DNA from: a virus
IMG/VR virus record: IMGVR_UViG_3300025086_000293
Span: 1 to 21,919 of that record
Reading direction: 5' to 3' (one strand)
DNA: 21,919 bases
Below, piece by piece: positions 4,030-17,293 of the stretch; positions within the stretch are counted from its first letter, which is position 1; every line of letters starts with the position of its first letter. The notes beneath the pieces were generated by a model that had not been told where the DNA came from, ran no database searches, and saw only the letters and a list, made by a program, of their open reading frames with translations. The translations under genes were made by a program, and so were the position numbers.

Positions 4030-4668
4030 TTATTTATAAATCCACATAAGGGTGGGCTTTGTTTGACTTTTAATTAATTTATCTATTTCTTTAAATGACT
4101 CATTAGATACAGCTGGACATCCCCAACCTTCTGGAGTACCTGCAGGATAAGTTTCTTCATTTGATATCATACCCCATGAATGAAATACAACCCAACGGTT
4201 AAATGCATTAGAATTAGATTCTTCTAAACCATGTAAACTATACTTTGCATTTACTCCCCAATCACTCCAACTTCTTTTTCCTATTTTATATTTACCAAGA
4301 GAAGACATATGACTGTCTACTGTATTGCTAAATTCTGGAGATATTTTACTTTCATCACTTGCCCATGTATTATTTCCACAACCATGACTAACTAAGTATT
4401 TATGTGTAACTTTTTTTTGTTTAAAGTCATAAACATAAAACCTTTTCTTACCAGAATGAATGCTCATATCTATAAGAATACAAAAGCTCTGATTAAAATC
4501 ATTTTCTTTACAATATGTTTTTGCTTCAATACCTTTATCTGCCAACTTTGTTTCTTTTTTCATTTGACTTATTGAAGGTCCTGCTATAAAGGACATTATT
4601 GCAGCTATCCCAAAAGATAATGCAATTCCCAAACTTAATATTATTATATTTTTTGTTAAATTTTTCAT
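4030..4668 (-). CDS. L,D-transpeptidase-like protein (YkuD_2 type), membrane anchored
   Basis: A 212-residue protein with an N-terminal signal anchor (about residues 7-30) and a periplasmic domain resembling the murein L,D-transpeptidase catalytic domain family. Key features are SLGKYKIG (123-130), YSLHGLEESNSNAFNRWVVF (His146 and His163) and GWGCPAVS (181-188, nucleophile Cys184). Cellular enzymes of this superfamily form 3-3 cross-links or attach or exchange residues on the tetrapeptide of peptidoglycan. In a phage early block it could strengthen or remodel the wall to resist superinfection, or modify cross-links before lysis; the direction is unknown. It overlaps none of its neighbours but is separated from them by only 2-6 nt. 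Confidence 0.82.
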   Translation of the reverse strand: MKNLTKNIIILSLGIALSFGIAAIMSFIAGPSISQMKKETKLADKGIEAKTYCKENDFNQSFCILIDMSIHSGKKRFYVYDFKQKKVTHKYLVSHGCGNNTWASDESKISPEFSNTVDSHMSSLGKYKIGKRSWSDWGVNAKYSLHGLEESNSNAFNRWVVFHSWGMISNEETYPAGTPEGWGCPAVSNESFKEIDKLIKSQTKPTLMWIYK

Positions 4669-9707: not shown

Positions 9708-9742
9708 TGAATAAAATAAAAGAGCTGAGAGCTTGACTCTTT
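9708..9742 (-). terminator. Rho-independent terminator at the 3' end of the giant structured RNA
   Basis: Minus-strand AAAGAG (9737-9742) pairs with CTCTTT (9719-9724) around a 12-nt loop that can itself pair partly (AGCT/AGCT), followed by TTATTTTATT. It separates the non-coding structured region from the micro-gene chain and sets the probable RNA end near 9710. Confidence 0.72.
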
Positions 9743-10380
9743 ACGTACAGATTAATTAACTTTTCAGTAATTATCTCACACAGTCCATTTCGGGTCTGTA
9801 CTGCACATGTTCACGGATTAAGATGTCCGCCATCACTACTAAAGTGGTCATAAGTTCACTTTCATACCGCATGCCTTACGAGCTTAAGAGGGTGTCCCCT
9901 CACTACAGATACTACCGGATTCCTTCATAGCAAGCCTTGCGAGCTATCTATGCCTCCATATTACAGAAGGATAAGAACATTGTTGCCTTTAGTGGGCTCA
10001 CAATAGTCTCCAAACTAATTTTGCTTTCTTCATTTGTTTATCTTGTTTAAATGTGCCAATCTAATGGCTAAGTTAGGATTCAGGTTAATGATAAGAGGCG
10101 CTTAGAGTTTATGTAATCATGCTTCCTTTTGGGAAGTTTAGACTACTACTCCTACCTGCTTTTGCTTGTCACGGCTACTCACTAAACTATTATCTATATG
10201 AACACGTGATTTCTCACAGCATTCTAGATGCAAATTCTAATACCAGCTCTAAGTGCGACAACACCATAGTACCAATACCTATCTCAATTCTTATTGCCTT
10301 TTAAGCTCAAGAGCATGCCTGTCATACTCTCCACACAACTCACGCACCCGAAGGGATTTGACGCTGCCGTTACATGGATA

Positions 10381-10440
10381 TTGAAATACTCTTCTATAAA
10401 ATACATATAGCGAACTATATATATCTCCACAGCCTTTCAA
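10381..10440 (-). other. UUCG-capped long hairpin domain of the structured RNA
   Basis: A closing helix TTGAAA/TTTCAA (10381-10386 with 10435-10440) encloses a 10-bp hairpin (10401-10410 with 10415-10424) whose minus-strand loop is UUCG. One pair (10404/10421) is G.U on the minus strand but C-A on the plus strand. This is the clearest local evidence for both structure and strand. Confidence 0.72.
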
Positions 10441-10845
10441 GTTGCTGATAGATTTATACCATTACTGGTTTATCTTAACGCCATGAGAGCTGGCGAACAT
10501 TTCTATAGACACTAATGCTACCTCAAGGATAGACATAAGCCACGGCAATGTTAAGCGTTCCAAGGATTCTCACCTTAGCTTTACACAGGTAGTTAGTAAA
10601 GACTGAATTCAATGTATCTTCTTTCAACTAACAACGAGACTATGCTGCATCTTGTCCCTGTGACCATAGACGTAGTGATCAATTACGATTATGGATTTTA
10701 TAAAAGGGGAACGTCCCCTAATGTTTAGTATTCTCTTACAAGGTTGCAACCCTTGATCCATACCCTTTGTTTTCAGCTAGAATTATACCGACATTGATAT
10801 AATTATCTTAATAACATTACTGCAATTGGATAAGAGAATAATTTA

Positions 10846-10952
10846 TAAGGGTGTGATTGGTATCTCTCATACGCTATTTAGATGCTTATTTCAACATCCA
10901 CCGTGATACCTGATATTTATAATGCGTATCCCTTAAAGTTTACACACCCTTA
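10846..10952 (-). other. Pseudoknotted domain of the structured RNA
   Basis: A 10-bp closing stem (10846-10855/10943-10952) encloses GGTATC/GATACC (10859-10864/10905-10910) and ATACGC/GCGTAT (10869-10874/10924-10929), whose strands interleave, giving a pseudoknot. A small GATG/CATC hairpin (10881-10884/10895-10898) sits in one loop. All pairs are Watson-Crick. Confidence 0.65.
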
Positions 10953-12784: not shown

Positions 12785-13099
12785 ATGAGTGAAGAAACCA
12801 ACAAAGAGCCTATGTCAACAGAAGAGGCTAACAAGAAACGTAAAGAAATTACGGATTGGTATAAGAAACAAATACCTCATCTAAAAGCACAAGCGGAATA
12901 TGAACGTCTTATGACGCAAATAGAAGAATCTCGTGCTAAGAGAATGCAAGCGCAAGCGTTTTTAGCAGACGCATATATGCAAATGGAGGGAGCTAAAGAA
13001 ACCCCTGATGAAATGTCAAGCAATCAGAAGGAAGCTGCAAAAGATTTTGAAGCAGCTAAGGGTAAAAGAAAACTTAAGGTAGAAAAATCTGAATCATGA
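12785..13099 (+). CDS. Coiled-coil hypothetical protein (104 aa)
   Basis: A highly charged, almost wholly helical protein. KKRKEITDWYKKQIPHLKAQ and AEYERLMTQIEESRAKRMQA form a likely coiled coil, followed by an Ala/Gln-rich helix and a basic end (AAKGKRKLKVEKSES). The stop overlaps the endolysin start by 4 nt (ATGA). Proteins with this ITDWYKKQIP...EYERL pattern recur ahead of the packaging genes in Bacteroidetes phages as I recall, with no assigned function. A virion or scaffold-like role is possible. Confidence 0.8.
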   Translation: MSEETNKEPMSTEEANKKRKEITDWYKKQIPHLKAQAEYERLMTQIEESRAKRMQAQAFLADAYMQMEGAKETPDEMSSNQKEAAKDFEAAKGKRKLKVEKSES

Positions 13100-14034
13100 T
13101 GAACAAACTTTTAAAAAAAGGTGATAGGGGTCCAGATGTAGTTCGTCTACAAAAGATCCTTAACATAATTCCAGACGGAGCGTTTGGACCTAAGACTGAG
13201 AAGGCTGTAATGAGGTTTCAACTTGAGAAACAACTAAAGGTTGATGGCATTGTTGGCTCAAATACTTGGCATATGTTAAGCTTAAGTAAATCTAGCGGTG
13301 AAGCTATTGATGAAGACACTGATCTCAATAGTCAACATTTTACTACTAACTATGATCAACTGATTCATAGGCATTACTTATATAAAGGGGAGTATGTAAA
13401 CAAACCCGGAAAGTTAGAGTATTGTTTTTTACATCATACTGCGGGAAGAGAAAACCCATATAGAACTATTGACCATTGGAATAAAGATACCAGGGGTAGA
13501 GTTGCTACAGAGTTTGTTATAGGGGGTCAATCTCATAAAACAAGTAATGATGAGTATGATGGTGTAGTAGTACAAGCTTTTCCAGAAAGTGGATATGGGT
13601 GGCATTTAGGTAAAACTGGATCAGGTCGTATGAATAGACATTCTATTGGTATAGAAATATGTTCTGCAGGATGGCTATCTCAGGATCCCGGTACAGAAAA
13701 TTACCTTACTTATTTTAAATCTAAGGTTGCAAAAGATCAAATAATAAAGTTAGATGAGCCTTTTAGAGGAAAGCTTCATTATCATGTATATTCTGATAAA
13801 CAAATAGAAGCAGTAGAAAAATTATTAAGATACATTGCTGAAAGAGATCAGATTGATATGAGACTTGGGCTTAGACAGTGGATTAAAAAATATGGACCTA
13901 AAAAAGCATTTGAGTTTCAAGAGGATGCATATTATGGTAAAGTAAAAGGGTTGTTATCGCATACAAACGTAAGACGAGATAAATCTGACATTTATCCAGA
14001 TGAAAGAATTGTAGATATAATTTTAAATTTATAA
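13096..14034 (+). CDS. Endolysin: peptidoglycan-binding domain plus N-acetylmuramoyl-L-alanine amidase
   Basis: 312 residues in two domains. Residues 4-61 are a PG_binding_1 repeat (LLKKGDRGPDVVRLQKIL; DGAFGPKTEKAVMRFQ; VDGIVGSNTWHML). After a linker, residues 105-310 are a zinc amidase of the Amidase_2/PGRP fold. Motifs are FLHHTAG (His113), GYGWHLG (His170), SIGIEICSAG (Glu187), and SHTNVRRDKSD (His289 and Asp298 as the expected zinc ligands with His113). It cleaves between MurNAc and L-Ala of the stem peptide at lysis. There is no signal peptide, so a holin or other export route is needed; no holin is evident beside it. The binding domain at the N-terminus is the reverse of many endolysins. 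Confidence 0.93.
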   Translation: MMNKLLKKGDRGPDVVRLQKILNIIPDGAFGPKTEKAVMRFQLEKQLKVDGIVGSNTWHMLSLSKSSGEAIDEDTDLNSQHFTTNYDQLIHRHYLYKGEYVNKPGKLEYCFLHHTAGRENPYRTIDHWNKDTRGRVATEFVIGGQSHKTSNDEYDGVVVQAFPESGYGWHLGKTGSGRMNRHSIGIEICSAGWLSQDPGTENYLTYFKSKVAKDQIIKLDEPFRGKLHYHVYSDKQIEAVEKLLRYIAERDQIDMRLGLRQWIKKYGPKKAFEFQEDAYYGKVKGLLSHTNVRRDKSDIYPDERIVDIILNL

Positions 14035-16952: not shown

Positions 16953-17070
16953 AGAAAAAGATAATTTAATTTTTTTATACTGGGATGAACCCAAATACAA
17001 AACAAAATCAAATAAAAATGACAAAACAAAGAGTAGTGCCAATAGGAAGGAAAGTTCTAATAAAAAGTAA
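16942..17070 (+). CDS. Possible small overlapping gene (42 aa)
   Basis: ATG at 16942-16944 lies inside the end of the 171-aa gene, with TAA at 17068-17070, overlapping the GroES-like gene in another frame. The product is MINKEKDNLIFLYWDEPKYK followed by a Lys/Ser/Asn-rich tail. Its beginning fills the gap between the two genes, but the tail looks like a read-through of a Lys-rich coding stretch. It is probably weak or spurious. Confidence 0.3.
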   Translation: MINKEKDNLIFLYWDEPKYKTKSNKNDKTKSSANRKESSNKK

Positions 17071-17293
17071 AACTCCTTCTCAATATTATGCGGGAACAAC
17101 AATACTAAAAACTGAAGTAACTAATGAATATATTGCAGAAGTAGTGGCCGTTGGAGATGCTGTAGATGGAATAGAAGTAGGAGATACTGTTAAATATTCA
17201 GAGCACGCAGATGGCATAGAGATGAAGCATGATGGTGATAATGTTCTATTAATGAACTATGATATGATATTTGCAAAAATCATAAATGATTAA
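16985..17293 (+). CDS. GroES-like co-chaperonin
   Basis: The domain TKQRVVPIGRKVLIKSKTPS...YYAGTTIL...YIAEVVAVGDAVDGIEVGD then TVKYSEHADGIEM...LLMNYDMIFAKI follows the GroES beta-barrel order: RPIGDRVLV-like start, mobile-loop region around residues 30-42, GDxV turn, final I-like strand. The ATG at 16985 adds 11 polar residues. The internal ATG at 17018 gives 91 aa, close to GroES length, and is the better start. Phage GroES-type proteins such as T4 gp31 replace host GroES to fold the capsid protein. The mobile loop here is short and lacks an obvious hydrophobic tripeptide, so host GroEL binding is uncertain. It overlaps the terminase start by 8 nt. Confidence 0.75.
   Translation: MNPNTKQNQIKMTKQRVVPIGRKVLIKSKTPSQYYAGTTILKTEVTNEYIAEVVAVGDAVDGIEVGDTVKYSEHADGIEMKHDGDNVLLMNYDMIFAKIIND

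Follow-up and report, generated by a model that had tools for sequence, protein, structure and literature searches.

A far-diverged GOLLD-class RNA with coupled L21 loops in a distantly crAss-like phage fragment

Introduction

GOLLD RNAs are free-standing transcripts that often adjoin tRNAs, and they are among the very few natural RNAs known to form large RNA-only assemblies. The solved member, GOLLD env-38, is a 14-mer cage; its loops L21a and L21b are reported to kiss symmetrically, each self-pairing with another chain, and L21a to alternate GC/CG (PMC12286853). A GOLLD RNA of a Lactobacillus brevis prophage is described, as cited in PMC7567579, as accumulating in lytic infection and yet being dispensable.

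We analysed a 21,919-nt stretch of viral DNA (IMG/VR virus record IMGVR_UViG_3300025086_000293, positions 1 to 21,919; hereafter the window). An initial annotation had proposed that the minus strand at positions 9708-10952 (1,245 nt) encodes a single giant, structured non-coding RNA, possibly a distant member of GOLLD or ROOL or else a new class. We conclude with good confidence that the minus strand from 10703 to 9714 encodes a GOLLD-class RNA of ~990 nt, carried by a phage whose terminase is distantly crAss-like and belonging to a subfamily beyond Rfam's curated family, and that by analogy with the solved member it would form a cage.

Results

Identification of the RNA as a GOLLD Relative

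At the gathering cut-offs, no Rfam family matches in the window. In a sensitive scan (cmscan with an E-value threshold), the GOLLD model RF02032 aligns over its positions 1-416 to 10156-9722 (-), with 47.2 bits and an E-value of 1.3e-10. This is less than the gathering cut-off of 150 bits, which is a curator's threshold and not a biological feature; the RNA lies outside the Rfam family as curated, though it is homologous to it. The comparison with Rfam models proposed in the initial annotation thus gave a full-length GOLLD match, while ROOL, OLE and other Rfam families gave no other relevant match in the region up to an E-value of 10. Relatives with full-length sequence homology score 50-122 bits against RF02032, bridging the gap to loci that the same pattern search found above the cut-off.

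Of the two GOLLD domains, RF02032 covers only that at the 3' end. The 5' domain was compared using R1, a covariance model built from the 5' domain of this clade. R1 matches the canonical GOLLD locus L120 (RF02032 score 304.8 bits) at E = 2.7e-12, upstream of its 3' domain as expected, and further matches L129 at 3e-5 and loci of ~410-kb phages at about 1e-19. Several other canonical loci (L121-L128) give no match to R1, indicating that 5' domains differ within the GOLLD class. In addition, two long-range helices beyond Rfam's annotated structure share their position, and not their sequence, with canonical GOLLD, and the size of ~990 nt, with a covariation-supported structure, compares with the >800 nt of GOLLD RNAs. 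The RNA is therefore a far-diverged GOLLD relative, a conserved non-coding minus-strand RNA whose 5' and 3' domains are both homologous to canonical GOLLD. Among the options of the initial annotation, GOLLD stands on the matches of both domains, the shared long-range helices and the covariation, while ROOL and a new class fall away: what is new is an outlying subfamily of a class already known.

Extent, Strand and Coding Potential

Comparison with relatives using nhmmer places the start of the conserved element near 10703, from where homology to L087, L091, L092 and L137 begins; the whole RNA spans 9714..10703 (-), with covariation along its length and an approximate 5' end. The limits first assigned to it were thus right as to a large minus-strand RNA and too wide at the 5' part. 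The ~250 nt from 10952 to 10704 were considered as part of the RNA and ruled out, having no conserved structure in common with most relatives. Within them, a ~95-nt stretch at 10950-10855 (-) has a closing stem of 9 bp (AAGGGTGTG/CACACCCTT) together with two 6-bp pairings that cross, and was not found in relatives.

Immediately before the start of the RNA, and outside it, sequence and alignment reveal a terminator-like hairpin at 10705..10719 (-), AGGGGACGUUCCCCU followed by UUUUAU, which is also found in L087. It probably ends an upstream transcript; a scan places its stem on the plus strand only. A scan for sigma-70-type promoters gave no excess over shuffles, and for this reason no promoter is claimed.

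No minus-strand ORF of at least 50 aa lies inside the RNA, and on the minus strand from 10989 to 9651 there is no ORF fit to be a gene, as the initial annotation had held. A coding signal in homologues, which it had named as a ground for rejecting its claim, was looked for and did not occur. A 61-aa plus-strand ORF (10119-10304) was rejected as coding: it runs across covarying helices, and its open frame is due to chance. At 37-39%, the G+C content of the RNA region exceeds that of the minus-strand genes on either side (about 27-33%), again in line with the initial annotation. In the conserved structure, G.U occupies 890 cells vs. 78 for A-C, which is the would-be wobble of the opposite strand. 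The RNA strand is thus the minus strand, in agreement with the transcription first suggested.

Covariation and Conserved Structure

To collect homologues, IMG/VR was searched with patterns of two conserved GOLLD motifs and then of the most conserved stretch of the clade, and the matches were aligned by nhmmer; 40 distinct sequences span both domains. Covariation was measured by a G-test with APC on these 40 sequences (799 columns), the null being alignments simulated on a FastTree tree. There are 40 covarying pairs at E ≤0.05, spanning 10521-9731, and all of them (40/40) are Watson-Crick or wobble in at least 85% of the sequences. In a further alignment, made with MAFFT from 35 of the 40 sequences and scored on a structure that includes three pseudoknotted pairings, 143 of 178 pairs have two-sided changes and 93.8% of the cells are paired. 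Controls in which the structure was slid by 1-3 columns have 37-44% of cells paired, a comparison tilted somewhat toward the structure, which came from a related alignment, though the margin is very large; no shuffle attains the observed value.

By contrast, the single-sequence fold of 10703-9714 has a z-score of -1.22 against shuffles (3 of 20 fold equally well), and the plus-strand fold of the same region has a z-score of -0.89. The initial annotation had placed its weight on stems in the single sequence. The elements that it listed, namely helices, pseudoknotted pairings (of which there are several), GNRA/UUCG-type loops and a 3' hairpin with a U-run, are all real, yet with a folding energy indistinguishable from shuffles that list is by itself not evidence, and it is the comparison of homologues that carries the statistical weight. 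There, the absence of covarying pairs that would have told against one giant structured non-coding RNA did not materialize, and that claim is borne out.

The RNA opens with a 5' extension (10524..10703, -), beginning with the hairpin CCAUA...UAUGG. Among the nearest relatives, the extension is kept in the window, L087, L091, L092 and L137, and partly in L119 and L168; 17 of its 56 pairs have two-sided changes (alifold, on only five sequences). The core of the 5' domain follows (10157..10523, -) and is, from the R1 alignment and model, the counterpart of the GOLLD cap domain; taken alone, this domain has two-sided changes in 38 of 48 pairs, with 95.3% paired. Inside it, a covarying loop-junction pairing joins 10489-10486 (CUCU) with 10389-10392 (AGAG) on the minus strand. 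All of its cells are paired (100%) and all four pairs (4/4) change on both sides, as CCUU/AAGG, CUCU/AGAG and CCAU/AUGG.

The 3' domain (9722..10156, -) is the part matched by RF02032. It contains a variable, A-rich linker (10016..10099, -), which differs in length and sequence among homologues, has a small hairpin GCCA...UGGC and takes in, at its start, the 3' strand of that domain's first stem. By analogy, this linker would correspond to the one that is unresolved inside the GOLLD cage; ARAGORN detects no tRNA in the linker or in the window. The linker is closed by an 8-bp helix that covaries in this clade, between 10107-10100 and 10008-10015 (-; CUCUAAGC/GUUUGGAG). This helix pairs J13/15 with the segment following AAAGCAAAA; in most canonical GOLLD members examined it occurs with other sequences. 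A 6-bp long-range helix (J17/18 with J22/23) joins 9980-9975 (AUGUUC) to 9807-9812 (GAACAU), likewise on the minus strand; it is paired in 99.5% of cells, covaries with two-sided changes in 3 of 6 pairs, and can be seen by eye in canonical L121, L122 and L125. Finally, the RNA ends in a 3' hairpin with the GOLLD loop UCUCA and a U-rich tail (9714..9742, -; 9742-9736 paired with 9725-9719), recognized from its sequence, the Rfam alignment and a helix of the conserved structure. It is a probable intrinsic terminator and conserved L27-type element.

Coupling of Loops L21a and L21b

Two hairpins identified by covariation and a table of loop sequences branch off one stem, P21: P21a (9888..9901, -), with the loop core AC at 9895-9894, and P21b (9873..9883, -), with the complementary core GU at 9879-9878. 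The names L21a and L21b for their loops (9896-9893 and 9880-9876) are our own assignment, made by position from residue 656-657 (PMC12286853) and the layout of the Rfam model.

The two loop cores are mutually complementary in about 40 of 40 homologues, three of which need a one-step register shift made by eye. The combinations of L21a with L21b are GC with GC (n = 26), AC with GU (n = 9), CC with GG (n = 2) and, in the shifted L082, L086 and L164, GG with CC; L202 is a further case of the latter, by eye. The nine AC-GU sequences come from the group of the window and from a separate lineage, L151/L155. Furthermore, the pair 9895-9878 covaries (E <0.05) and is among the pairs never attained in the tree-based null. 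Coupling of L21a with L21b in this subfamily is thus supported.

Cores of AC, CC or GG are unable to self-pair. The self-complementary L21a loop (bridge B8), a trait of the solved member and not of the Rfam definition, is absent in the window, where the AC core pairs with the GU of L21b instead. Inspection by eye of canonical members shows a palindromic GGCC in the L21a of L122, L124 and L131, and no second hairpin in L122 or L124. From these sequences, the subfamily may use a different cage interface or an internal contact.

Distribution among Phages

Near homologues (L092, L091, L116, L102, L087 and L094) are 80-95% identical over the core, and distant ones 51-62%, most with E <1e-100 against the core profile. 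The RNA is present in contigs with terminases 82-92% identical to that of the window (G051, G055, G050, G007, G091 and G100). Since an RF02032 search of whole records missed G055, G066 and G078, whose RNA is 87-93% identical to the window's, calls of absence from RF02032 alone were distrusted and repeated with R1. By either model, the RNA is missing from L004 (115.6 kb, with a 90% identical terminase) and from L036 and L066 (contigs of ~115-117 kb). The RNA is thus patchy in the clade, which indicates that it is dispensable. Flanking sequences vary between carriers, and homologues also occur in contigs without a related terminase.

In a blastn search against named phages, neither the window nor two divergent homologues had a match. 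A pattern scan of bacterial and archaeal genomes gave 18 matches, with L222 as the only true homologue; it is a 4.6-kb contig binned as an alphaproteobacterial MAG and probably a phage contig, so the scan gave no identification of the host. Separately, the ~410-kb huge-phage contigs L141, L144, L150 and L154 carry GOLLD with both domains, and L141 also has tRNA genes and a tmRNA gene near it.

Genomic Context

The window is a phage fragment with a crAss-like terminase (phrog_6681); the best named relatives of the terminase, from Flavobacterium and crAss-like phages, are 25-27% identical. The RNA sits in a leftward unit that adjoins a divergent rightward unit with the endolysin (13096-14034, ~2.4 kb from the RNA) and the terminase. 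Small leftward genes lie directly downstream of the RNA, the first ORF being 9651-9475. Elsewhere in the window are genes for a Cpn10 (GroES-like) co-chaperonin (16985-17293, +), a protein with a YkuD_2 L,D-transpeptidase domain (4030-4668, -) and a DUF2459 protein (1339-1905, -).

Several small elements were also observed around GOLLD loci. A region of the window without listed genes contains a conserved 20-aa micro-ORF, MYTEHNGVITPIEWLTNDNG (11760-11698, -), whose changes in L092, L004, L091 and L026 are synonymous and conservative. Directly after it comes a highly conserved leader-like RNA (11680-11490, -; GGAGUUUAACCAGCUUGGCAACAGAAAU ... GUUAGUCCAUA...UAUGGCUAAC), which belongs to no Rfam family and is retained in L004, a contig without GOLLD; a pattern scan matches six stretches, mostly in this phage group. 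A ~55-nt block (window 11411-11349, -) recurs 3' of GOLLD in L090, L094, L101 and L168, as if transferred as a module. Degenerate tRNA-like genes with a good T arm and an odd anticodon arm adjoin the RNA in L119 (1414-1488), L137 (1166-1240), L091 (3656-3728) and L164 (4106-4180), and another (L004:463-534) lies beside the empty GOLLD slot of L004. That slot is filled by an ORF-free stretch of ~670 nt ending in a U-run (L004:1230-560, -), which has no Rfam family and one relative, L229, and is possibly another large RNA.

Discussion

From the solved GOLLD structure, the RNA would be expected to fold during its synthesis, and its copies to assemble, by way of A-minor and loop-loop contacts, into a hollow cage of RNA alone that encloses the linker. 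We infer that it would accumulate during infection, late, and might act as a container or sequestering body; both cage formation and function are ascribed to the window RNA by analogy. Weighing against this GOLLD-cage reading are the score of 47 of 150 bits, the patchy presence, the lack of a tRNA nearby, L21 loops that do not fit the reported self-kissing, and the several canonical loci without an R1 match.

The low score, well under the gathering cut-off, would also suit a separate class of large RNA, resembling GOLLD only by convergence on shared junction and tetraloop motifs and forming no GOLLD-like cage, as would the different wiring of the L21 loops and the lineage-specific 5' extension. 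We regard this as very improbable: the 3'-domain match is colinear and full-length, intermediates of up to 122 bits stand in the same alignment, the 5' domain is homologous in the best canonical member, and the long-range helices and the 3' UCUCA hairpin are shared. The position of the RNA, directly upstream of the small leftward gene run, and the fact that phage leaders can be long, would be expected as well of a cis-acting structured leader or regulatory region for those genes. Such a leader is improbable too, given that a conserved hairpin with a U-run terminates the RNA ahead of the next gene, that GOLLD RNAs are not part of other transcripts, and that carriers differ in their flanks, including contigs without a related terminase.

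Within a GOLLD-class RNA, the coupled loops can be read in two ways: either two half-shells would meet through them, or both hairpins would kiss within one chain. Known riboswitches show 2-bp loop-loop kisses between neighbouring hairpins, and L21a-L21b could likewise be an internal kiss in one three-way junction (cf. L2-L3 of the purine riboswitch), with the cage interface otherwise as solved. That both hairpins branch from P21 accords with this, and covariation cannot tell a contact within a chain from one between chains; on the other hand, both loops contact other molecules in solved GOLLD (PMC12286853), and the short stems and linkers may forbid an internal contact. We consider the internal kiss a serious possibility, if somewhat short of an even chance. 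That a heterotypic L21a-L21b contact between chains has replaced the two self-pairing contacts, giving a changed cage interface and perhaps another subunit number, we put forward only tentatively. If true, evolution would here have altered the quaternary structure of an assembly made only of RNA.

Whichever way the loops are joined, the dozens of homologues missed at the Rfam cut-off, many of them from phages with crAss-like terminases, provide a second well-sampled GOLLD subfamily in which both domains can be aligned. Covariation can be read straight from it; among the signals is the coupling of the two loops, which predicts that the cage interface has changed and is testable by a few point mutations. 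In addition, patchy presence at ~90% terminase identity gives natural pairs of carriers and non-carriers, which can be compared in the search for the function of the RNA.

Among known systems, the ~800-nt abundant orf-less transcript of phage ICP1 (PMC7567579) is similar in being a large non-coding transcript of a phage, located by the lysis genes rather than by tRNAs; it is likened here by description, and that paper does not establish its family. ROOL is also a large phage/prophage RNA that forms a nanocage (PMC12286853), but its Rfam model does not match the region, even with E-values up to 10 allowed. The closest system is GOLLD itself (RF02032/env-38, PMC12286853). The window RNA departs from it in its 47 bits vs. 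150, its ~180 nt of extra 5' extension, its distantly crAss-like phage lineage, the lack of a tRNA in the linker or the window, and L21a and L21b loops that pair mutually and are not self-complementary. It shares with GOLLD a phage-encoded RNA of >800 nt with a divergent 5' and a conserved 3' domain, a colinear full-length match of the latter, homology of the former to a canonical member, the AAAGCAAAA segment, the variable linker with its closing helix, the J17/18-to-J22/23 helix and the UCUCA 3' hairpin.
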